Source: Acidocella sp. KAb 2-4
Lineage (GTDB): Bacteria > Pseudomonadota > Alphaproteobacteria > Acetobacterales > Acetobacteraceae
Assembly (NCBI RefSeq): GCF_020567705.1
Contig: NZ_JAJDJU010000025.1
Location: 1-32,499 of the forward strand
Direction of reading: 5' to 3'
Length of the DNA: 32,499 nucleotides
The position numbers and the translations under genes were made by a program. A model generated the notes under the pieces. That model was not told the DNA's origin and made no database searches. It saw nothing but the letters and a program-made list of their open reading frames with translations. Below, piece after piece: positions 8,459-19,815 of this stretch. Position 1 is the stretch's first letter. Each line of letters begins with the position of its first letter.

Positions 8459-9795
8459 TCAACATTGAGGCCGTGCGTGCGCAGGCGCGTGAGCGCGTCC
8501 GCGCGGCGCTGGCGGTGGACCCGGTGCGCCGCTTCGGCCGCATCGTGCGCGCCAGCGGCGATGTGCTGCACGCCAGCGGCATCCGCGCGCCGATCGGGGC
8601 GCGCTGCCTGATCGACATGCCGGACGCCGCCCCGCTACCGGCCGAGATCGTCGGGTTCCAGGAGGGTGGGCTACTGCTGATGCCCGAGCAGGGCGCGCGC
8701 GGGGTGGTGCGCGGCGCGCGGGTGCATGTGGAGGGCGGCACGCACGCGCCGCTGGTCGGCCCGGAACTGCTCGGCCGGGTGCTGGATGCGCGCGGCGCCC
8801 CGCTGGACGGCTTGCCGCCGCCCGCCGTATCGCACCCCTGGCCGCTGATGGGCGTGAGCGTGAACCCGATGACCCGCGCGCGTCTGGACCAGCCCTTCGA
8901 TGTCGGCGTGCGCGCCATCAACGCGCTGGCCACGTTCGGGCGCGGCATGCGTGTGGGGCTATTCGCGGGGTCGGGCGTGGGTAAGACCACGCTGCTCGGC
9001 ATGCTCTCGCGCCATGCCCAGGCCGATGTGGTGGTGGTGGCGATGATCGGCGAGCGCGGGCGCGAGATCAGGGAGTTCATCGAGGACCATCTCGGCCATG
9101 CGCGGCAGCGCAGCGTGGTGGTGGCCTCGCCCGCCGACGATACCGCGCTGAGCCGCGTGCATGGCGCCTATCGCGCCGCCGCCATTGCTGAATATTTCCG
9201 GGCCCAGGGCCAGCACGTGCTGCTGGTGGTGGATAGCCTCACGCGCCTGGCCATGGCGCAGCGCGAAATCGGGCTGGCGGTGGGCGAGCCGCCCGCCACC
9301 AAGGGCTATCCGCCCTCGGTATTCGGCGCGCTCGCGGCCTATGTCGAGCGTGCTGGCAATGGCGCGGAAGGGCAGGGCAGCATCACCGCGATCTACACGG
9401 TGCTGGTGGAGGGTGACGACCACGTGGGCGATCCGGTGGGCGACACGGCGCGCTCGGTGCTGGACGGCCATATCGTGCTGTCCCGCGCCATGGTCGAGGC
9501 TGCGATCTACCCGCCGATCGACATCACCGCCTCGCTCTCGCGCCCCATGCCGGGGCTGGTGCCGCCTGAGCATATGGCGCTTGCCTCGCGTTTCCGCGCG
9601 CTCTGGGCGCGTAAGCGGGAGAAGCAGGATTTCATCGACCTCGGCGCCTATGCGCCGGGGCGGGACAAGTTACTGGACGAAGCCATTCAACGCGCCCCGG
9701 CCATGGAGGCGCTGCTGCGTCAGGACAAAGAGTCCGGCGTAACCCTGGCCGAGAGCGTGGCGGCGCTGCGCGCGGCCCTGGGTGAAGCGGCGTGA
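8455..9795 (+). CDS. fliI: Flagellum-specific export ATPase FliI
   Basis: FliI is the F1-beta-like hexameric ATPase that feeds substrates to the flagellar export gate. Translation from ATG 8455 gives 446 residues, the normal length. The Walker A loop is AGSGVGKT at 171-178, followed by the conserved VVVAMIGERGREIREFIE and a Walker B region in VLLVVDSLTRLAMAQREIG. The typical PATKGYPPSVFGALAAYVERAG and DPVGDTARSVLDGHIVLSR are present. An upstream in-frame ATG at 8386 would add 23 residues overlapping fliH with no supporting homology. ATG 8455 overlaps the fliH stop as ATGA, which is the pattern of the whole operon. The end overlaps fliJ as GTGA. Confidence 0.97.
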   Translation: MINIEAVRAQARERVRAALAVDPVRRFGRIVRASGDVLHASGIRAPIGARCLIDMPDAAPLPAEIVGFQEGGLLLMPEQGARGVVRGARVHVEGGTHAPLVGPELLGRVLDARGAPLDGLPPPAVSHPWPLMGVSVNPMTRARLDQPFDVGVRAINALATFGRGMRVGLFAGSGVGKTTLLGMLSRHAQADVVVVAMIGERGREIREFIEDHLGHARQRSVVVASPADDTALSRVHGAYRAAAIAEYFRAQGQHVLLVVDSLTRLAMAQREIGLAVGEPPATKGYPPSVFGALAAYVERAGNGAEGQGSITAIYTVLVEGDDHVGDPVGDTARSVLDGHIVLSRAMVEAAIYPPIDITASLSRPMPGLVPPEHMALASRFRALWARKREKQDFIDLGAYAPGRDKLLDEAIQRAPAMEALLRQDKESGVTLAESVAALRAALGEAA

Positions 9796-10217
9796 AGGCG
9801 GCGACGCTCGCCCGGCTGGATCTGTTGGCCGCCGAGCGCGAGGCCGCGCTGCTCGAAACCATCAGCCAGCAAAATTTAGCCTTGCAGCAGGCGGCGTATC
9901 AGCGTGGTATGCTGGTTTCCTATCGCGAGCGCCTCGCCGCCAGCTGGCAGGGCGGCGCGGTGGTGAGCGCGGCGCAGGCGCGCCGGGCCGGGCAATTCGC
10001 GGCCGGAGCCCTGGGCGCGCAAGGCCAGCTCACCGACACCGAAGCCGGCACGCGCGCGCGGCTGGATGCGGCCATTGCCGATCTCGCCCGGCTCAAGGCG
10101 CACCGGCGCAAGCTGGCCGAGCGGCTGCGCGCGCTTCAACGCCAGGCCAGCGCGGCAGCGGAGCTGAAGGCGGCGCAAAATCTGCCCTGGCGGGGCCGCT
10201 CCCGCGCCGGTTTGTAA
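9792..10217 (+). CDS. fliJ: FliJ-like flagellar export chaperone
   Basis: FliJ is a small coiled-coil stalk protein that sits in the FliI hexamer and links it to FlhA. The 141-residue product starts with GTG overlapping the fliI stop (GTGA). It is almost entirely helical, with heptad-like Leu/Ala spacing in two long segments (about 5-60 and 75-130) and a basic C-terminus (PWRGRSRAGL). FliJ is poorly conserved, so the call depends on size, predicted antiparallel coiled coil and position directly after fliI. This gene ends the tightly overlapped block that began at fliG; a 47-base gap follows. Confidence 0.72.
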   Translation: MKAATLARLDLLAAEREAALLETISQQNLALQQAAYQRGMLVSYRERLAASWQGGAVVSAAQARRAGQFAAGALGAQGQLTDTEAGTRARLDAAIADLARLKAHRRKLAERLRALQRQASAAAELKAAQNLPWRGRSRAGL

Positions 10218-10264
10218 TCAAACGCTAAGATTTAGCCCGCCATATGGTCCCAAAGGAGACCAAA
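10218..10264 (+). promoter_or_regulatory. Gap before flgL with a loose sigma-28-like promoter and RBS
   Basis: After a long run of overlapping genes, this gap is the first place for a separate promoter. CAAA at 10219-10222 and GCCATATG at 10239-10246 are 16 bases apart, similar to but not identical with the sigma-28 pattern TAAA-N15-GCCGATAA. A short inverted repeat GCTAA-GAT-TTAGC spans 10224-10236. The RBS AAAGGAG at 10252-10258 clearly serves ATG 10265. Confidence 0.3.
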
Positions 10265-11467
10265 ATGGATTTGTCGCTCTTTACCAGCTTCACCGCCTCC
10301 CTCACCGCGCAGGAGGCGCAGATCGCGCAGCTGCAACAGCAGATCTCCAGCGGTGTGGCGGTGCAGACGCCGGACCAGAACCCTGCGGCGTATGAGACTG
10401 GCGTGCTGGGCAATGATCAGATCAGCCAGTTGAACGGTGACAACACCACCCAGGCCGCCGTGCAGGTGCAGCTCGGCAATGTGAGCGACGCTTATTCCTC
10501 GATGAGCACGCTGTTCGACAATGTGCAGACCATCGTCGAGCAGGCGCTGAACGGCACCACCAGCGCCGCCAACATGAACGCGCTCGCGCAGCAGGTGAAA
10601 TCCGCGTCGCAGCAGCTGCTCGGCATCGGCAACAAGACAGCGCCGAACGGCACCTATCTGTTCGGCGGCTCGCGCGGCTCGCTGGCGCCGTTTCAAGCCA
10701 ACGCCAATGGCGATATCGTCTATTTTGGCGATGGCGGAGGCTCGCGGGCCAGCATCGCCCCGGGGCAGACGGCCAGCACCCTCGCCAATGGCGATGTCCT
10801 CGTCTCCAGCCTGGCGGGGGATGGCATCTCCAATGTCACCGCCAACAGCGCCAACACCGGCAGCGGGCAGATTTTGCAACAGGGCGTGGTCAATGCCAGC
10901 GCCGCCAACGCGTTCCAGCAGGGCGGCGCGGCCATCACCGTCACCTTTGGCGGTGGCAACACCTATACCGCGACGCAGAATGGCAGCGCCATCGCCAGCG
11001 GTACGCTTTCCACCAGCAGCGGTACCACGCTGCAACTGGCCGGCGTGGATTATCAGATCACCGGCAGTCCGGCGAATGGCGATCGTTTCACCATTGCCCC
11101 CGCGCGCCCGCAATCGGCCTTCACCCTGCTGCAAAACATCTACAACGCCTTGGCCAGCACCAGCGGCACCCCGGCGCAGGTGGCGCAGACCAACCAGGCG
11201 CTCAACCAAAGTCTCGCGGGGCTGGCCCAGTATCAACAGGCGGTGCTGACCGCGCAGGCGCAGAACGGCGTGACCTTGCAGGCGATCACCACCGCCGCCG
11301 CCAGCAACACCGGGCAGGCCACCAAAACGCAAATCAATGTCGACAACGCGACGGCGGTGAACATGCCGGCGGCGATCTCCAGCCTGACCCAGACCATGAC
11401 CGCCCTGCAGGCCGCGATGAAGACATTCGGCACGGTGCAGAGCCTGAGCCTGTTCAAATATCTCTAA
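10265..11467 (+). CDS. flgL: Flagellar hook-filament junction protein FlgL (HAP3)
   Basis: FlgL joins hook to filament together with FlgK. The 400-residue protein carries the flagellin-like N-terminal helical segment. In it, QQISSGVAVQTPDQNPAAYE (about 26-45) corresponds to the ISSGKRINSPSDDP signature of flagellins and FlgL. A Gly/Ser/Thr/Ala-rich variable middle follows, and a helical C-terminus ends in a run of coiled-coil heptads closing with SLSLFKYL. ATG 10265 is preferred over an upstream ATG at 10244 because AAAGGAG lies six bases before it. FlgK is normally the neighbour but is absent here; the next gene is instead a large glycosyltransferase-type protein. Confidence 0.85.
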   Translation: MDLSLFTSFTASLTAQEAQIAQLQQQISSGVAVQTPDQNPAAYETGVLGNDQISQLNGDNTTQAAVQVQLGNVSDAYSSMSTLFDNVQTIVEQALNGTTSAANMNALAQQVKSASQQLLGIGNKTAPNGTYLFGGSRGSLAPFQANANGDIVYFGDGGGSRASIAPGQTASTLANGDVLVSSLAGDGISNVTANSANTGSGQILQQGVVNASAANAFQQGGAAITVTFGGGNTYTATQNGSAIASGTLSTSSGTTLQLAGVDYQITGSPANGDRFTIAPARPQSAFTLLQNIYNALASTSGTPAQVAQTNQALNQSLAGLAQYQQAVLTAQAQNGVTLQAITTAAASNTGQATKTQINVDNATAVNMPAAISSLTQTMTALQAAMKTFGTVQSLSLFKYL

Positions 11468-11477
11468 GGATGCCGCC

Positions 11478-14400
11478 ATGTCGGACGCGATTTTCATTGT
11501 CGGTTACTACCGCAGCGGCACGTCCGCGCTCTCCGGCGCGCTAATGCGCGCGGGGGTAAAGTTCTATAACGATGCTGACCCAAACGAGCACAACCCGCTC
11601 GGCTTCTATGAAATTCCGGAGCTTATCCAATATGATGCCGATCTGTTCGCGCGCCTGGGCGTGGATTGGACGGATGTGCGCGGCCTGCCGCCCGGCTGGA
11701 CCGAGCGCGCCGATCTCAGTGCCTTCTGGTCGCGCCTTGAGGAAATCATCCGCCGGCGCTTCCTCTCCGCGGATAAGCTCTGGGGGCTGAAGCACCCGCA
11801 TCTGTGCCGCACCCTGCCCGCCTATGAGCGCGCCGCCCGGCAGGCCGGGCACAAGCCGCATGTGGTGCATATCTTCCGCGACCCGTGGACCGCCGCCGCC
11901 AGCCAGCAGCGCAAGAATGGCCTGAGCCGCGCCCATGCCTTGTTGCTATGGATGACCTACGCCACCTCTGGCGAGCGTCTGGCCCGGCATTTGCCGCGCA
12001 GCTGGACGACCTACCAGGATTTGCTCGACAGCCCCTCCGCGCAGCTGCGCCGGATTGCCGTGGAGCTGGATCTGCCGCTCGGTGCGCGCGGGGTGGAGGA
12101 CGCCGCCAGCTACCTCACCACCCAGCTCAACCGTAGCGAGCCGCTTGCGCGCGAGGGGCTGTGCCGCCCGTTGGAGCGCCTCGTTGCCCGCACGTGGGAA
12201 GCGATCCAGGCACGGGAGTTCATCCCCGAAATGTGGGACGGTTTCGCCGAGGAGACCGCCGATCTCGTCGGCTTCCTGAGTGAGATCGGCGCCAGCCGCG
12301 GCCGCGCGCTACCGGCTCTGGGCGGCTCCTTCACCCAGGTCGCCGGGGCGGCGCGGCCCGCCGGTGGCGCCACCGCCCTGCGTCCGCCCGAACGCAGCGA
12401 TGACGGCGCCAGGACCCGCCTGCGCGCGATGCAGGCGGCGGCGGGAGAGCTGCCGCGCCTTGCTGTCGTGATCGCCGCGCCCGCTGGCCGCGCCCACGCG
12501 GTGAACGACACCCTGGCCGCGCTCGACGGGCAGTGGGAGCGGCCAGCCAGGATCATTATCCTGGCCGCCGATCCATTATCGCTCGATGGCCATCAGGTGA
12601 CGGCGGTTGACCCGGCGCCAGAGGCGATGAGCCGCGCCCTCTGCGCCGCGCTGAACGACGCGGCGGCGGGCGCGGATTATCTCGCCGTGCTCAATGCCGG
12701 CGACACGGTCTCCCCCGACGCCTGCCTGCGCTTCGCCCTCCAAGCCGCCGCCACTGGGGCCGAGATGCTGTATTGCGACGAGATCGTCCCGCGTGAAAAC
12801 GGCCAGTGGGTGCGGCGCAAACCGAGCTGGGACATCACCCGCCTGCGTCAGGCCGCCTACCTCGGCGATTGGGTGTGGTACGGCGCGGGCGCCGTGCGCC
12901 GCCTGGGCGGGTTCGACCCGGCGCGCGCCGGGGCCGAGGAGTTCGATGTCCAGCTCCGGCTGGCCGAGGCCGGTGCCAAGGTCGAGCGCCTGCCGGAGGC
13001 GCTGTTCACCCGCAGCGCGCAAAGTCGGCGCGACGACATCCGGGCGGACATATTCTGCGCCCGCGCCGCCCAGGCGGTGCAGGAGCATCTGCGGCGCGCC
13101 GGGCTGCCGGCCGAGGTGCAGAACCGCCAGCATCTCGGGCTGTTCCACCACATGCGCAATGTGGCCGACCCGGGCACCAGCATCATCATGCTCTGCGATG
13201 GCGGCGAGGTTCCGGCCCTCAATGGCTGGCTCACCGCGCTGCTCAGCGGGCAGCCGCTCACCGGCCCGGTGATCCTGGCTGGGGCGGAGCTGAATCCCGG
13301 TCTGCAGAATTATCTCACCGAGGTCAGGCGCCAGACCGCGGCGCTGGAGGGCAAGGTGCTCGCCGTGCCGCCCGCGCCCGGCCTCACCCAGGCCGAGGCG
13401 TTGCGCCAGGCGCTGGCGCTGGTACCCACCCCGCATGTCGCGGTGCTGGATGCGCGGGCCGAGACGGCCTCGCCCTATTGGCGGGAGGCGCTGCGCATGC
13501 GCCTGGCCGACCCCGGCGTGGCCCTGGTGGCGGCACGCACGCTGGTGCCGCTTGAGGGCGCCAACAAGACCCTCACCATGGTGCAGGGGCCGATCGTGAT
13601 CGGCGCCGATACCCGCCTGGGCGCTGGGCATCTGGCCGACGACCCTGGCCCCGGCGGCTGGCTGCTGGTGGACCAGGAGGCCAGCGCCCTGGCGCCGCCC
13701 GGCTTGCTGGCGCGCACCGCCGCCCTGGCCGCCTGCGACTTCCCGGCCCTGAGCGGCGACGCGCTGTGGATCGACCTGTGCGCGCAGATCCGTGCCCAGG
13801 GGGCGCGGCTGGTCTGGACCCCGGATATCTCCTTCGTCATGCCCGCCGGCGCGGTGCAGGCCGATGCCGCCGCTTCGTTCCGCCAGGGGTCGGAAGCCGC
13901 GCGGGCGCTGCCCTGGGCCGATCCCTATCACCATCCCGCGCTCTCCCTGCATGGTGATCTCCTGGCCGACGAAGCCCGCGCCGGGCTGGTGCCCGCCAGC
14001 CCGGCCGACCCGCTGGACCTGCTGGTCACCGGCGCCCCTGGCCCCGGCGCGGCGGCGCTCAACGCGGCGCGGACGCTGCGCCGCGACGGCGTCTGCTCGG
14101 CCGATTGGGCGCCCGAACGGCCCAACGCCGCCGAGCTTGGCCGCCGCGCCCCAGCCGCCTGGGTGCGGGTGAATCCGGCCGTTCCGGCCTTCCCCCACAG
14201 CCCGGCCTACACCGCGCTCTACACTGCCATGCCCGCCGATCTCGACTCGGCCAAGCCCGTGCTGGCCGCCGCCTCCGGCGTTTATGCCACCTCACCCGCG
14301 TTGGTGGCCAAGCTGCGCGGCCTGGTTCCCCCGGGCCAGCCGGTTGGGTTGTGGCGCCCCGGCTTGTCGCGTCACATCTGGGCCGGCCTGCAACCCGGCA

Positions 14401-14924
14401 CTGGGCTCAACACCAAGCCGCGCGTGCTCTGGGTCGATGAGGGCAACAACCCGCCCTGGTTCCAGGAGCTGATCGCCGCCACGCTGGACAGTGCCGCCTG
14501 GATCGTGGTCGAGCGCTCCGGCGAGACCTATCCAGGCGCCATGTCCCGTCTCACTCTGCCCGAGACCGAGGCGGACTGGGCGCAGGCGATGACCGAGCTG
14601 GGGCCGCAGATCATGGTCCGCCCCGCCAATATGGAGGCTTACGCCGATCACTACCCCCTCCTGCTGGCAGCGGCGGCGGGGTGCCATCTGCTGGTGGATG
14701 ACCGCTTCGACATCCCCTCCAGCCTCGGCGCGCTGCGGCTGAAGAACCGCCTTCCAGCCTGGAAGGAGGCGCTCAGCGGCGCGGTGGCCGATCTTACCGC
14801 CACGTTGAAACACGGCCAAAAGACCCGCCAAGCCGCGCTCGCCCTGCCCGCCAGCGAAGACGTCCCGCCCCCCTGGGTTGATTTCAGCGCCAGCGCCGCT
14901 GGGCTGCGGAGCGCGGCGGAGTGA
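11478..14924 (+). CDS. Giant sulfotransferase-glycosyltransferase fusion within the flagellar cluster
   Basis: This 1148-residue protein is a chain of carbohydrate-modifying modules. Residues 1-270 look like a PAPS-dependent sulfotransferase: a 5'-phosphosulfate loop YRSGTSAL at 11-18 and a 3'-phosphate-binding segment FRDPWTAAASQQ at 133-144. Residues 326-515 match a family-2 GT-A glycosyltransferase (YLAVLNAGDTVSPDA, MLYCDE, GAGAVRRLGGFDPA, FDVQLRLAEAGAKVERLPEA). Residues 565-795 resemble a second, more divergent GT2 unit (SIIMLCDGGEVPALNGWLTA, PHVAVLDARAE, ending LVWTPDISF). Residues 845-1090 resemble a GT-B fold fragment (YATSPALVAKLRGLVP, RVLWVDEGNNPPWF, LAAAAGCHLLVDD). No signal peptide or membrane helix is seen, so it should be cytosolic. 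It follows flgL by 10 bases with AAGGA before ATG, and overlaps flgA as GTGA. A role in modifying flagellin or another surface polymer is inferred from context. Confidence 0.8.
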   Translation: MSDAIFIVGYYRSGTSALSGALMRAGVKFYNDADPNEHNPLGFYEIPELIQYDADLFARLGVDWTDVRGLPPGWTERADLSAFWSRLEEIIRRRFLSADKLWGLKHPHLCRTLPAYERAARQAGHKPHVVHIFRDPWTAAASQQRKNGLSRAHALLLWMTYATSGERLARHLPRSWTTYQDLLDSPSAQLRRIAVELDLPLGARGVEDAASYLTTQLNRSEPLAREGLCRPLERLVARTWEAIQAREFIPEMWDGFAEETADLVGFLSEIGASRGRALPALGGSFTQVAGAARPAGGATALRPPERSDDGARTRLRAMQAAAGELPRLAVVIAAPAGRAHAVNDTLAALDGQWERPARIIILAADPLSLDGHQVTAVDPAPEAMSRALCAALNDAAAGADYLAVLNAGDTVSPDACLRFALQAAATGAEMLYCDEIVPRENGQWVRRKPSWDITRLRQAAYLGDWVWYGAGAVRRLGGFDPARAGAEEFDVQLRLAEAGAKVERLPEALFTRSAQSRRDDIRADIFCARAAQAVQEHLRRAGLPAEVQNRQHLGLFHHMRNVADPGTSIIMLCDGGEVPALNGWLTALLSGQPLTGPVILAGAELNPGLQNYLTEVRRQTAALEGKVLAVPPAPGLTQAEALRQALALVPTPHVAVLDARAETASPYWREALRMRLADPGVALVAARTLVPLEGANKTLTMVQGPIVIGADTRLGAGHLADDPGPGGWLLVDQEASALAPPGLLARTAALAACDFPALSGDALWIDLCAQIRAQGARLVWTPDISFVMPAGAVQADAAASFRQGSEAARALPWADPYHHPALSLHGDLLADEARAGLVPASPADPLDLLVTGAPGPGAAALNAARTLRRDGVCSADWAPERPNAAELGRRAPAAWVRVNPAVPAFPHSPAYTALYTAMPADLDSAKPVLAAASGVYATSPALVAKLRGLVPPGQPVGLWRPGLSRHIWAGLQPGTGLNTKPRVLWVDEGNNPPWFQELIAATLDSAAWIVVERSGETYPGAMSRLTLPETEADWAQAMTELGPQIMVRPANMEAYADHYPLLLAAAAGCHLLVDDRFDIPSSLGALRLKNRLPAWKEALSGAVADLTATLKHGQKTRQAALALPASEDVPPPWVDFSASAAGLRSAAE

Positions 14925-15589
14925 ACCGCCGCGCCCTCGCCGCCCTGCTCGCCCTCTGGCCCGGCTTTGCCCTCGCCGGGCAGAACCCCGGCGCGGTGAG
15001 CGCGGCCGTGCGCCAAGCCGCGCAGATGGTGGCGCCGCCCGACGCCACCCTCACCCTGGGGCCGGTGACCGGGGCGGCCTATATGCAGGCCTGCACCGCC
15101 CCGCTGGCCGTGAGCATGAGCGGCGTGGCGCCTTATGAGCAGGCGGCGGTGCATTGCCCCACCCCGGGCTGGACACTCTATGTCGCCGTCACCGTGGCGC
15201 AGAGCGAGGATGTGGTGGTCACCGCGCATCCCGTGGCCGCCGGGCAGAGTTTGGCGGCTGGCGACCTCACCGTGCGGCGCGAGCCGGTGCAGCTTTTCGC
15301 CGGGCGGCAGGTCTTCGCCGACCCCGCCCAGCTCGTCGGTTCCAGCGTCATGATGTCCCTCGCCGCGGGCATGGTTATCACGCAAGACACGGTGCAGGCC
15401 CCGCTGGTCATCAAAGCCGGGCAGACGGTCACGGTTCAGGTTATCAGCGGCGGCGTGGTGCTCTCGGTCAACGCCGTGGCGCAGCAGCCGGGCCGCATCG
15501 GCGACACGATTTTGCTCACCAATCCCTCCTCGGGCCGGCGTTTCTCCGCCGAGGTCACGGCGCAGGGGCCGGTGGTGCAGCTGCAATAA
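14921..15589 (+). CDS. flgA: Flagellar P-ring assembly chaperone FlgA
   Basis: FlgA is a periplasmic chaperone for P-ring subunits. The 222-residue product starts with GTG overlapping the previous stop (GTGA). It has a Sec signal peptide (basic MNRRALAALLALWPGFALAG, cleavage likely near residue 19-20). A variable N-terminal domain follows, and then the conserved C-terminal SAF-like domain (about 95-220): VVVTAHPVAAGQSLAAGDLTV, PAQLVGSSVMMSLAAGMVIT, VIKAGQTVTVQVISGGVVLS, GDTILLTNPSSGRRFSAEV. These are clear FlgA signatures. The position downstream of flgL and the large transferase is unusual, since flgA is more often near rod/hook genes or beside flgM and flgN. Confidence 0.93.
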   Translation: MNRRALAALLALWPGFALAGQNPGAVSAAVRQAAQMVAPPDATLTLGPVTGAAYMQACTAPLAVSMSGVAPYEQAAVHCPTPGWTLYVAVTVAQSEDVVVTAHPVAAGQSLAAGDLTVRREPVQLFAGRQVFADPAQLVGSSVMMSLAAGMVITQDTVQAPLVIKAGQTVTVQVISGGVVLSVNAVAQQPGRIGDTILLTNPSSGRRFSAEVTAQGPVVQLQ

Positions 15590-15699: not shown

Positions 15700-17202
15700 A
15701 TGTCGGCCGTTGGTTCCATCCTGACAAATACCGGTGCCCTCTCGGGGCTCAACTCTCTCGCCAACACCACCGCGAACAACAACAACCTTGAGACTCAGCT
15801 TTCCAGCGGTCTGTCGATCAACTCCCCGTCCGACAACCCGGCGGGCTATATTACCGCGCAGGGCTTCACCTCGCAGCTCAACGGCCTCACCCAGGCGGTC
15901 TCCAACGCCAATCAGGGTGTCTCCCTGCTGCAGACGGCGCAGGGCGCCATTTCCCAGCAGATCGGCATTGTTCAGCAGCTGAACTCCATCGCCGTGCAGG
16001 CCGCCAACGGCACGCAGACCGCCGCTGAGTCGCAGTCTCTGCAAACTTTGGCCAGCCATTTGACCAGCCAGGTCTCCACCATCGCCAAGCAGACGCAGTT
16101 TAATAACATCAACCTGCTCGACGGCTCTTTCCAGGGCGTGCAGTTTCAGGTTGGCGCGAATGAGGGGCAGACGATGAGCCTCTCGATTTCCAACACCAAT
16201 GCCAACGCGATCGGCATGTGGCATTCCTCGGCGGCGAGCGCCGTTTATAAAGGCACCAATGGGTCGGCCAAGAATGGCCAGGTCGGCAGCGCGGCCATCA
16301 CGCTCGGCGCGCCGGGTGCGGCAGTGGGTGCCTTCACGGCCGGCGCCGCGACCATCACCGGCGCCAACGGCGCCAGCCAGGCGGTCACGTCCACCGCCGG
16401 AGAATCCGCCGCCTCCCTGGCGGCCACGGTCAACAACCTGTCGAGCCAGGCTGGCGTGCAGGCCCAGGCCTACACCCAGGCGACTTTCCAGCTGACGGCT
16501 GGCACGAACGGCCAGTACCAGTTCAGCATTCAAGCGGCGAGCAGCGGCGCGACCACGATTGGCAGCCAGCAGAAGATCGTCGCGTCCTCGGCCGCAGGCG
16601 TGGTGTCTGAGATCAACAGCCAATCCTCGACCAGCGGCATCACCGCGTCGCTCGATAAAAACAACAACCTGGTCCTTACGCAGTCCGCTGGTGAGAACAT
16701 CAACATCACCGGTGCCAGCTCCGGCTCTCTGCAGGCGGTTAACTCCAAGGGCACGGCCATCGCTGGCGCGTTGATCAAGACTGGTGCGGCATCGGCAGTG
16801 ATCCAGGGCCAAGTGCAGTTGCAGTCCTCCGGCGCCTTCTCCGTTACCAACGGTGCGGCCATCGGCGTGAAGGGCAACTCCAGCCTTGCCGATCTGGGTG
16901 ACATCAACGTGTCCAACACCAGTGGCGCGAATGCCGCGATCAACGTTGTGAAGTACTCGCTGGCCACGTTGAACAACCAGGGCGGTTCGCTGGGCGCCGT
17001 GCAGCAGAGCCTCACCGCGAACATCAACAACATGAACACCACCAGCCAAAACCTCACCACCGCTCTCGGCGTGGTGCAGGACGCCAACATCCCGGCGGTC
17101 AGCACCAAGCTGACGCAGTCGCAGATTCAGGCGCAGGCCGGTGTGGCGGCGCTCAAGGCCTCCACCCAGCTGCAGCAATCCTACACCTCGCTGCTGCCGT
17201 AA
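15700..17202 (+). CDS. fliC: Flagellin (filament subunit)
   Basis: This is the filament subunit exported through the flagellar channel. The 500-residue protein has the flagellin layout. The N-terminal D0/D1 region (1-165) contains LETQLSSGLSINSPSDNPAG and LQTAQGAISQQIGIVQQLNS. A variable Ala/Ser/Thr/Gly-rich centre (166-399) may be surface exposed. The C-terminal D1/D0 region (400-500) includes TALGVVQDANIPAVSTKLTQ and AGVAALKASTQLQQSYTSLL. It contains no cysteine or signal peptide, as expected. The segment that in enteric flagellins is QRVRELSVQ and binds TLR5 reads QQLNSIAVQ (92-100). The gene has its own leader and a 3' hairpin, typical of a highly expressed monocistron. The rich Ser/Thr centre offers candidate O-linked modification sites. 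Confidence 0.96.
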   Translation: MSAVGSILTNTGALSGLNSLANTTANNNNLETQLSSGLSINSPSDNPAGYITAQGFTSQLNGLTQAVSNANQGVSLLQTAQGAISQQIGIVQQLNSIAVQAANGTQTAAESQSLQTLASHLTSQVSTIAKQTQFNNINLLDGSFQGVQFQVGANEGQTMSLSISNTNANAIGMWHSSAASAVYKGTNGSAKNGQVGSAAITLGAPGAAVGAFTAGAATITGANGASQAVTSTAGESAASLAATVNNLSSQAGVQAQAYTQATFQLTAGTNGQYQFSIQAASSGATTIGSQQKIVASSAAGVVSEINSQSSTSGITASLDKNNNLVLTQSAGENINITGASSGSLQAVNSKGTAIAGALIKTGAASAVIQGQVQLQSSGAFSVTNGAAIGVKGNSSLADLGDINVSNTSGANAAINVVKYSLATLNNQGGSLGAVQQSLTANINNMNTTSQNLTTALGVVQDANIPAVSTKLTQSQIQAQAGVAALKASTQLQQSYTSLLP

Positions 17203-17265: not shown

Positions 17266-18663
17266 ATGACGTCCTCGGTGAGCGCGCTTAGTTCGTCCGC
17301 TATTTCCTCGCAAATCAGCAATTACGCGGCCAAGCTGCAGGCGCCGATCACCCAGTTGCAAACCCAGGTCAAGACCGAGCAGGCCGAAATTTCCGCCTGG
17401 GGCAGCATCAGCGGCGCGGTCTCCACGCTGTCGCAATCTTTGGCCAACATCAAAGATTTAAGCACAATCAACAACAAATCCGCGAGCACCGCCAACAATG
17501 CTGTCGCCACCGTCTCGGCCACCAGCTCCGCCGCCACGGGGGCGTATAATCTGAGCGGCGTGAAGCTCGCACAGCCGCAGGAGATCTATTCCTCGCTGCT
17601 GAGCTCCGGCAATGCGACCCTTTCCGGCGGCGCCGGGTCACTGGTCTTCACGCTCGGCGGCGGCAAGAGCGAGACCGTGTCAATCGGCTCCGGCAGTCTA
17701 ACGCTCAATGGTGTCGCCGCGGCCGTCAACAAACAACATGGCGGCGTGCAGGCGAGTCTCATCGGCACCGCAGCCGGCACGCGGTTGGTGTTGCAAAGCA
17801 GCGCCACGGGCGGTTCCGCCGCGTTCACGGTGTCGGGCACAGGTGCGCTCGCGCAATTCTATTTCAACCCGAGTTCCGCAACCGCCCATAGCGGCGAAAC
17901 ACTGGCGCAAGCCGCGCAAGATGCCACGCTGTCTCTGAATGGCGTGCCCATCATCAGCGCCTCCAACACGCTCACCAACACCATCCCGGGAGTAACGATC
18001 ACGCTGGCTGGCTCGGGCGCCACCTCGCTCGCGGTCAGTTCCTCTCCGGCCGGCCTTTCCAACGCCGTGCAAGGCGTCGCCACCAGCCTTAACGCCGCGA
18101 TTTCCGCCATCGCGAAACAGACGAAGTACGTGCCCGCCAGCACCGCCAGCGGGTCAGCCCAGGCTGGCGTGTTGCTGGGGAATTTCTCGGCCACCTCGCT
18201 GAAGAGCGAATTGATGTCGGCGGTCAGCAGCCTCGTCGCCAGCGGCGTCAGCGCCGGCGCGGCGGGATTGTCGATCAGCAGTTCTGGCGCCGTAAGTTTC
18301 AATACGTCCAGCTTCGCCAGCCAATACGCCAAAAACCCGACGGCGGTGCAGAAGCTCATTGGCACGCTCTATCAGAAGCTGAACACCATCTCTGCCAGCG
18401 CCATCGGCAGCGCCGGAGGCTCCAGCGCAAGCACGGGCAGCACGAAGAAAAATACGGGCTTCATCACCGCGCAGACAGCGTCGCTCAACGGTATTGTCAC
18501 CTCGCTCGACAGCCAGATCACGCAGTTGACCAAGCAAGGCTCGGCGTCGCTCAAAAATATGCAGTCGCTCTACACGTCCGCGGAGACGGCCGCCAACTCG
18601 GCGTCCATCACGCAGACTTATCTCAATATTTTCAACACGAACTCCTCTTCTTCGAACGGTTAA
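17266..18663 (+). CDS. fliD: Flagellar filament cap protein FliD (HAP2)
   Basis: FliD caps the growing filament and guides flagellin folding. The 465-residue product has a Ser/Ala-rich N-terminal helical part resembling FliD_N (about 10-115: ISSQISNYAAKLQAPITQLQ, TEQAEISAWGSISGAVSTLS, and the strand VSATSSAATGAYNLSGVKLA). A beta-rich centre follows, and a FliD_C-like C-terminus (about 215-460) contains LSLNGVPIISASNTLTNTIP, VTITLAGSGATSLAV and the closing coiled coil ITQLTKQGSASLKNMQSLYT. The length is typical. It lies 63 bases after fliC and 14 before fliS, the usual fliC-fliD-fliS order. Confidence 0.92.
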   Translation: MTSSVSALSSSAISSQISNYAAKLQAPITQLQTQVKTEQAEISAWGSISGAVSTLSQSLANIKDLSTINNKSASTANNAVATVSATSSAATGAYNLSGVKLAQPQEIYSSLLSSGNATLSGGAGSLVFTLGGGKSETVSIGSGSLTLNGVAAAVNKQHGGVQASLIGTAAGTRLVLQSSATGGSAAFTVSGTGALAQFYFNPSSATAHSGETLAQAAQDATLSLNGVPIISASNTLTNTIPGVTITLAGSGATSLAVSSSPAGLSNAVQGVATSLNAAISAIAKQTKYVPASTASGSAQAGVLLGNFSATSLKSELMSAVSSLVASGVSAGAAGLSISSSGAVSFNTSSFASQYAKNPTAVQKLIGTLYQKLNTISASAIGSAGGSSASTGSTKKNTGFITAQTASLNGIVTSLDSQITQLTKQGSASLKNMQSLYTSAETAANSASITQTYLNIFNTNSSSSNG

Positions 18664-19052: not shown

Positions 19053-19354
19053 GCAACACCATCCCTCCGCTATCGGCGGCGACATCTGCCGCGGTTACCA
19101 CCGAAGCCGCCCCCCCGCCCGCCACCGCAAAGTCCACCAGTTCGGCAGAGACGACGCCGCAAACCGAGGCCGTGACCTTGAGCGATGCCGCCCAAACCAG
19201 CACCCAACTACTTTCCGCCGCGCAACAATCTGCTGGCATCGACCATGAAGCGGTTGCGCGCATCCGCAACGCGCTCGCCGCAGGCAATTATAACGTCGCG
19301 CCAGAAGATCTGGCGCAGGCCATGGTCGCCGTTCTGAAAGTGACAAGCAAATGA
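19049..19354 (+). CDS. flgM: Anti-sigma-28 factor FlgM
   Basis: FlgM binds and inhibits sigma-28 until it is exported through the finished hook. The 101-residue product has a disordered Ala/Pro/Thr/Ser-rich N-terminus and a C-terminal sigma-binding region (about 60-101) reading AGIDHEAVARIRNALAAGNY, then NVAPEDLAQAMVAVLK. This matches the FlgM consensus of the type VDxxKVxxIRxAIxxGxYxVDxxxIA. It overlaps fliS and the next gene by ATGA on both sides. Its presence supports the FliA assignment at 5368, though the two genes lie 13 kb apart in the cluster. Confidence 0.85.
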   Translation: MSNTIPPLSAATSAAVTTEAAPPPATAKSTSSAETTPQTEAVTLSDAAQTSTQLLSAAQQSAGIDHEAVARIRNALAAGNYNVAPEDLAQAMVAVLKVTSK

Positions 19355-19815
19355 GCATCTCCGGCCAATTCCGCACGCTGGATCTCAAGCCGGAGCCGCC
19401 TGCGGTCGCTGATATACTAGCCCGCGGCCTTGATCTGGTTGAAAGTCTCGGCCTCAAGCTGCATCACTTGGACGATCTGATGCTCACCGGCCGCCCCAAT
19501 GAGATTTCAGACGCCGCCGCCGCGGTCGAAGGCGCGATCCGAGACGCATCACCCACCTTCACGCAGATCGCGGAGACCGTCAGCCGTCTCGGCGCGTCCA
19601 ATTTGGTCACAGCCGCTGAACAATTACGTAAGATTGAAGAAGACGATGCCGCGGGCTTGGCCGAGGCCCTGCGCGGCGCCCTAACCCGCTTTGCGAAGCG
19701 CTCTTTCAGCGCCAATCGGCGCGCGCAGCATCTCAATCGGGGATTGAATGCTGCGCTGCAATCGCTCCAGGCCTTAGGCGTGCAAGAGGGCGGGCGGCTG
19801 ATCGCGGAAGCCTGA
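19351..19815 (+). CDS. flgN: Probable FlgN-like export chaperone
   Basis: FlgN escorts the hook-associated proteins FlgK and FlgL to the export gate. The 154-residue product is predicted all-helical with long amphipathic stretches (LARGLDLVESLGLKLHHLDD, SDAAAAVEGAIRDASPTFTQ, LRGALTRFAKRSFSANRRAQ). This fits the FlgN fold, but the sequence has no decisive motif. The call rests mainly on its position directly after flgM, the usual flgM-flgN pairing, with an ATGA overlap. It closes the flagellar cluster. It could instead be another small flagellar helical protein. Confidence 0.55.
   Translation: MSISGQFRTLDLKPEPPAVADILARGLDLVESLGLKLHHLDDLMLTGRPNEISDAAAAVEGAIRDASPTFTQIAETVSRLGASNLVTAAEQLRKIEEDDAAGLAEALRGALTRFAKRSFSANRRAQHLNRGLNAALQSLQALGVQEGGRLIAEA

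Follow-up and report, generated by a model that had tools for sequence, protein, structure and literature searches.

A sulfotransferase-glycosyltransferase fusion protein encoded between flgL and flgA in Acidocella and related genera is a candidate modifier of flagellar proteins

The flagellar gene cluster of Acidocella sp. KAb 2-4 encodes, between flgL and flgA, a large protein that joins an N-terminal sulfotransferase domain to glycosyltransferase units and that we call ST-GT. The cluster lies in a 32,499-nucleotide stretch of DNA, the window, to which all positions given here refer. We find that ST-GT is a genuine and conserved protein, that it is linked to the flagellum, and that it combines a sulfotransferase domain with one or more GT2-type units. 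Its open reading frame (ORF) of 1148 codons starts with ATG, is intact, and contains no internal stops; 10 bases separate it from the end of flgL at 11467, and it overlaps flgA, which has a GTG start at 14921, by 4 bases. An initial reading of the window made from the letters alone (the sequence-only reading) had described just such a 1148-residue ORF 10 bases past flgL and overlapping flgA, and the coordinates, the intact frame, and the FlgL and FlgA profiles all agree with that description. The gene is more than a chance frame because 40 homologous copies share its location and because the ratio of nonsynonymous to synonymous substitution rates (dN/dS) over the whole gene is 0.13 to 0.15 between the window and two relatives (loci L032 and L036, 84 to 85% identity), rough values given a dS of 0.5 to 0.9. 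The closest named genome is that of Acidocella aromatica DSM 27026, at 85% protein identity; Acidocella aquatica has a copy as well. A role for ST-GT in modifying flagellar proteins is probable, and the reading that we favor is a cytosolic ST-GT that would glycosylate and sulfate flagellin, FlgL, or both as exported proteins of the flagellum. That the flagellum bears a sulfated glycan is plausible, and we put this forward more tentatively.

The position of the gene is consistent among its copies. Our linkage set comprises 40 copies from 38 genomes, two genomes contributing two copies each. Directly upstream, on the same strand, flgL is present in all 39 copies that can be read (one lies at a contig edge), and flgA lies downstream in 36 of 36 (four at contig edges). 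The loci of the two most distant genera (L070 and L073, one locus each) have upstream genes unlike the fliH-fliI-flgL series of Acidocella; by Pfam these are flgF/flgG-type rod genes, flgI, a flgJ-type glucosaminidase gene, flgK, and flgL. The triplet of flgL, ST-GT, and flgA is kept in both, so it has come through a rearrangement of the genes to its left. As at loci of the Fgt/FgtA kind, a glycosyltransferase gene is thus conserved among late flagellar genes.

Among the genomes sampled, full-length relatives of ST-GT were confined to Acidocella and to three further genera of the family. A search of 61 relatives recovered ST-GT in 30 of 37 Acidocella genomes (four of the 30 copies are cut by contig ends) and left seven without it. 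The family sample yielded 21 of 397 genomes, namely 14 Acidocella and seven from the three other genera, whose copies are more divergent (two at 57% identity, two at 37 to 38%, and three at 34 to 36%). Profile searches of the class and the phylum, which scored the two best candidates per genome in partial samples with one genome per species, gave matches at E ≤ 1e-30 in 14 of 385 and 21 of 329 genomes, respectively, with a full-length match only in the window's own genome in each case; the remaining matches are confined to the sulfotransferase domain, with one exception in the glycosyltransferase region. One genome (G002, loci L012 and L048) carries an ST-GT with a single in-frame stop after about residue 1018, either a broken gene or an assembly error.

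Within the family, ST-GT accompanies one type of FlgL. FlgL scores over the TIGR02550 cut-off in 20 of the 397 family genomes, and all 20 have ST-GT; in the 21st genome with ST-GT, the contig begins inside the gene. Another 306 of these family genomes match the FlgL profile at E ≤ 0.001 without reaching the cut-off. Some sampled members of the three other genera have both ST-GT and a FlgL over the cut-off, and others have neither. The same holds for Acidocella, with both in 30 of 37 genomes and neither in seven, where not every absence need be real because the assemblies are drafts of 73 to 98% completeness. Across the class, FlgL exceeds the cut-off in nine of 289 genomes, the window's own included. 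The FlgL proteins of the eight genomes outside the family reach no more than about 31% identity with window FlgL over long stretches, and no ST-GT match at E ≤ 0.01 was found beside their flgL genes or at one sub-threshold locus (L153 to L161, up to 1.5 kilobases on each side; L153 and L154 are cut by contig ends). These eight are absent from the 14 class genomes that match ST-GT, in a sample that may not include all of them; one of the eight, G048, was also among the 61 relatives searched and lacks ST-GT.

Two genomes, G199 (L075 and L076) and G004 (L077 and L078), have two flagellar clusters each, with one ST-GT per cluster. The paired ST-GT proteins are 52% (G199) and 56% (G004) identical, and the paired FlgL proteins 53% and 57%. 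Over 20 common loci, ST-GT distances correlate with those of FlgL at 0.94, motA at 0.90, FlgA at 0.88, FliD at 0.86, FliC at 0.77, FliI at 0.70, and FlhA at 0.68; in an uneven set with as many as 30 loci, the values are 0.96, 0.89, 0.95, 0.87, 0.60, 0.67, and 0.48 in the same order. The pattern supports co-inheritance of ST-GT with the cluster and with FlgL, not with a specific partner, and flagellin as the co-evolving partner could not be singled out by this measure.

The linkage data bear directly on the strongest alternative, that ST-GT is a surface-polysaccharide enzyme that builds and sulfates a cell-surface or slime glycan alongside flagella, its place in the operon reflecting co-expression only. 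The same domain order does occur in other proteins whose fetched stretches show no flagellar genes, and one such stretch (L150) holds a polysaccharide-export gene. The sequence-only reading had asked whether homologues lie mostly in polysaccharide loci; full-length copies are instead found at flgL (39 of 39) and flgA (36 of 36), next to one FlgL type. Where the sequence allows a reading, every one of the 40 copies adjoins flgL and flgA, no other glycosyltransferase or polysaccharide family was found among the flagellar ORFs scanned (28 window ORFs in all), and presence or absence of the gene tracks one FlgL type in the family. We therefore consider a purely polysaccharide-directed enzyme unlikely.

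The N-terminal domain is, by its motifs, a real sulfotransferase of the type that uses 3'-phosphoadenosine 5'-phosphosulfate (PAPS), and it is the most constrained part of the protein. The Pfam family Sulfotransfer_3 matches the window protein with an E value of 1.4e-4 and 22.7 bits, under the 27-bit gathering score, and it matches 16 of 18 aligned ST-GT members at E ≤ 0.01 (E values only). These 18 members, with identities down to 33%, underlie all motif counts given here. The sequence-only reading had pointed to a P-loop, YRSGTSAL, and a 3'-PAPS segment, FRDPWTAAASQQ; we locate them at residues 11 to 18 and 133 to 144, respectively, with their key residues invariant. The loop YYR(S/T)GTS(A/G)L occurs near the N terminus in 18 of 18 members, with Tyr10, Tyr11, Arg12, Gly14, Thr15, Ser16, and Leu18 invariant, as are Arg134, Pro136, and Ser142. 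We take residues 10 to 18 to be the 5'-phosphosulfate-binding (5'-PSB) loop and Arg134 and Ser142 to belong to the 3'-phosphate-binding (3'-PB) motif. Of five segments of the gene, the sulfotransferase domain has the lowest dN/dS (0.06 to 0.08, window versus L032 and L036), which speaks against a decaying sulfotransferase. The window's own genome also encodes an adenosine 5'-phosphosulfate (APS) kinase.

A second alternative is a flagellar glycosyltransferase whose sulfotransferase domain does not sulfate and instead serves to bind a substrate or a protein. Apart from the sub-gathering Pfam score of the window protein, what favors it is the motif KHPH at residues 105 to 108, of which KHP (105 to 107) is present in all 18 members at a place where KDP is invariant in the four non-flagellar fusions aligned with them. 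The invariance of the binding-loop residues and of Arg134 and Ser142, in the most constrained domain of the protein, argues the other way, and we judge a non-sulfating domain to be quite improbable.

The sequence-only reading had also proposed two GT2-like units, a call that holds well for the first and in part for the second. Pfam itself gives only a weak GT2 match to the window protein (residues 405 to 513, E 0.027, best 14.7 bits against a cut-off of 27) and matches one of the 18 members at E ≤ 0.01. An hhalign comparison with four proteins of the order sulfotransferase-GT2-GT2 (ST-GT2-GT2) gives a single alignment over columns 4 to 824 with a probability of 100 and an E value of 2e-53, in which sulfotransferase pairs with sulfotransferase and residues ~324 to 560 and ~561 to 824 each pair with a Pfam-verified GT2 domain. 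Unit 1 retains Asp409, Asp434-Glu435, Glu487-Glu488, and Arg494 in all 18 members, its acidic motifs aligning with those of the GT2 domain, and its assignment as GT2-type appears well supported. Unit 2 is best described as GT2-like and partly degenerate: Asp658 is kept in 15 of 18 members (Glu in the other three) and Asp766 in 14 of 18 (Glu in four distant members). Relatives at flagellar and at other loci alike share the fusion to GT2 units, which suggests that the acceptor is a sugar and makes direct sulfation of Tyr or Ser/Thr side chains on a flagellar protein, with a separate role for the glycosyltransferase part, very improbable, even though some sulfotransferases of the clan act on protein.

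Residues 806 to 1148 form a conserved C-terminal region, with dN/dS of 0.12 to 0.13 over residues 806 to 1110 (window versus two relatives). The sequence-only reading had called this tail GT-B-like. We abandon that assignment on sequence grounds: credible matches to residues 806 to 1148 were absent in Pfam (11 members scanned) and in the PDB (profile search), and hhalign of the tail against one Pfam-verified GT-B protein gave a probability of 1.2. Solved-structure searches with the ST-GT protein, its profile, and two domains returned nothing usable. No membrane-type hydrophobic segment is present in ST-GT, the highest 19-residue Kyte-Doolittle mean being 1.33.

The fusion itself is not unique to flagellar clusters. 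Other alphaproteobacteria encode ST-GT2-GT2 proteins (L143, L144, L145, and L150) whose GT2 domains exceed Pfam cut-offs and whose domain order is that of ST-GT over residues 4 to 824. ST-GT differs from them in its flagellar locus, flagellar genes being undetected in their fetched loci, and in residues 825 to 1148, before which the alignment stops. Because no flagellar genes were detected around these ST-GT2-GT2 proteins, the architecture looks borrowed, and the simplest story would be that such a fusion was recruited into a flagellar cluster and then spread vertically or together with the cluster. The flagellar sulfotransferase domains (n = 12) form one clade with 100/100 support in a tree of 46 rows; its stem, at 1.33 changes per column, is too long for the source to be named. 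An 852-residue GT2-GT2 protein (L087:7803-10361, G000:C45) is a distant paralogue of the glycosyltransferase part, and matches to that part recur in open frames of ~830 to 905 residues across many genomes of the family. A 1529-residue open frame (L149:7911-12497) combines an N-terminal sulfotransferase-like match with GT2 and GT-B domains, another sulfotransferase-glycosyltransferase arrangement.

The candidate substrates have few charged residues. Window FliC contains 12 Asp+Glu and 11 Lys+Arg in 500 residues (4.6% charged) and 23% Ser+Thr, and FliC averages 4.0% charged residues across 21 loci. The charged fraction is 6.9% in window FlgL and 6.0% in FliD, against 17 to 23% in FliM, FlhA, FliH, FliI, and FliS. 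Acidocella lives in acid habitats, and a sulfate ester, unlike a carboxylate, stays ionized at acid pH; a sulfated glycan could therefore be an attractive source of charge.

From these sequence features we infer catalysis, the order of steps, the substrate, and the biological role of ST-GT. A GT2 unit would transfer a sugar onto Ser/Thr of an exported axial protein, most likely flagellin, with FlgL and other hook-associated proteins as further possibilities. The sulfotransferase domain would then move sulfate from PAPS onto that sugar, glycosylation would precede secretion through the flagellar export gate, and the filament or junction would come to carry a sulfated glycan. PAPS and sugar nucleotides are cytosolic, and flagellin acquires its modifications in that compartment, ahead of export; a soluble chain of GT2 units and sulfotransferase fits this. 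Negative in an acid habitat, the sulfate could replace the charge missing from the flagellins. It is plausible that ST-GT is the dedicated sulfoglycosyltransferase of one flagellar type, placing a sulfated sugar on charge-depleted axial proteins so that the surface of the filament would stay negative in acid.

Parallels to parts of this proposal exist. In Pseudomonas syringae, the genes fgt1 and fgt2 are found upstream of fliC, Fgt1 is reported to move rhamnose to flagellin serine, and the flagellin glycan consists of rhamnose and a modified viosamine (PMC3927599). These glycosyltransferase genes adjoin flagellar structural genes in the manner of ST-GT. Fgt1 and Fgt2 are not known to have a sulfotransferase part, and the likeness to ST-GT drawn here is one of gene position. 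Maf-type glycosyltransferases also have a role in flagellin glycosylation; no match to PF01973, which we take to be the Maf family, was found in the window's own genome, a weak test in which controls matched in archaea only. For sulfate on a swimming filament, the parallel is Halobacterium: sulfated glycans have been described on its archaella, yet one study detected no sulfate (PMC6591318), and a later one identified VNG1056C and VNG1057C of Halobacterium salinarum as two glycan sulfotransferases, with little change in motility when sulfation was lost (PMC11980604). That system differs from ours in having an archaeal N-glycan, an archaellum, and two separate sulfotransferase genes.

Several points weigh against a sulfated flagellar glycan made by ST-GT. 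The little-changed motility of Halobacterium on loss of sulfation implies that sulfate may matter little for swimming. The GT2 assignments rest on profile alignment, with no Pfam match over a cut-off. No fliC query match lies beside ST-GT in the distant loci read (L070 to L074), and no sugar-nucleotide synthesis family was found among the flagellar ORFs scanned. Flagellin is not singled out by the distance correlations, which are high with motA and lower with fliC, and the co-occurrence counts ignore kinship and are inflated by shared descent. The median charged fraction of FlgL, 5.9% in 30 ST-GT loci versus 18.7% in 14 FlgL from loci without ST-GT, is kept as a hint, since habitat, ancestry, and FlgL type would account for the contrast equally well. 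The 14 (L108 to L117, L155, L156, L157, and L161) come from loci that other searches had returned, with frames chosen by a composition rule, and are mostly sub-threshold and of another type, the class loci L153, L154, L158, L159, and L160 being left out.

Flagellar glycosylation is already known, and the interest of the ST-GT proposal lies in the sulfate, next to a flagellin with almost no charged residues. A single gene, seemingly both glycosylating and sulfating, that four genera keep at the flgL-flgA junction and that occurs twice in genomes with two flagellar clusters, offers a one-gene test in bacteria, and it would allow the role of sulfate in filament function at low pH to be asked in named Acidocella species. 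Among the matches listed in the open-access literature, which leaves most subscription journals outside, we found no visibly fitting paper on a sulfotransferase in bacterial flagellin glycosylation and no example of a sulfated bacterial flagellar glycan. If the proposal is correct, such a glycan would be the first, as far as the open-access literature searched reaches.

The features of the locus are collected in Table 1. The same-strand flagellar run consists of the end of fliG, followed by fliK, fliM, fliQ, flhA, a sigma factor gene, motA, motB, fliH, fliI, flgL, ST-GT, flgA, fliC, fliD, fliS, and flgM.

Table 1. Positions of ST-GT, its domains, and neighboring flagellar genes in the window.
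Feature	Coordinates	Strand	Basis or remarks
ST-GT gene (sulfotransferase / GT2 / GT2-like / uncharacterized C-terminal part)	11478..14924	+	Stop-free ORF, 1148 residues
Sulfotransferase domain, residues 1-200	11478..12077	+	Sub-threshold Pfam Sulfotransfer_3 (5-200), motif residues, dN/dS
GT2-type unit 1, residues ~331-560	12468..13157	+	Aligned by hhalign with a GT2 domain of the ST-GT2-GT2 proteins; acidic motifs
GT2-like unit 2, residues ~561-800	13158..13877	+	hhalign; distant genera have lost part of the acidic motifs
C-terminal domain, family unassigned, residues 806-1148	13893..14921	+	Conserved; no credible Pfam/PDB match
flgL (hook-filament junction protein)	10244..11467	+	TIGR02550, 168.9 bits, cut-off 127.2; constant upstream neighbor of ST-GT
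flgA (P-ring chaperone)	14921..15589	+	TIGR03170 over cut-off, ChapFlgA; constant downstream neighbor
fliC (flagellin; candidate substrate)	15700..17202	+	Pfam Flagellin_N/C; composition
fliD (filament cap; additional candidate substrate)	17266..18663	+	Pfam FliD_N/C; composition

Two smaller frames were also noted. The ORF at 9782-10228 was considered as fliJ and set aside as probably a wrong frame, with an odd composition of four Asp+Glu and 35 Lys+Arg in 148 residues. Past flgM, a 154-residue ORF (19351-19815), with no Pfam match at E ≤ 0.01, recurs at the same spot in many Acidocella clusters at 46 to 80% identity.

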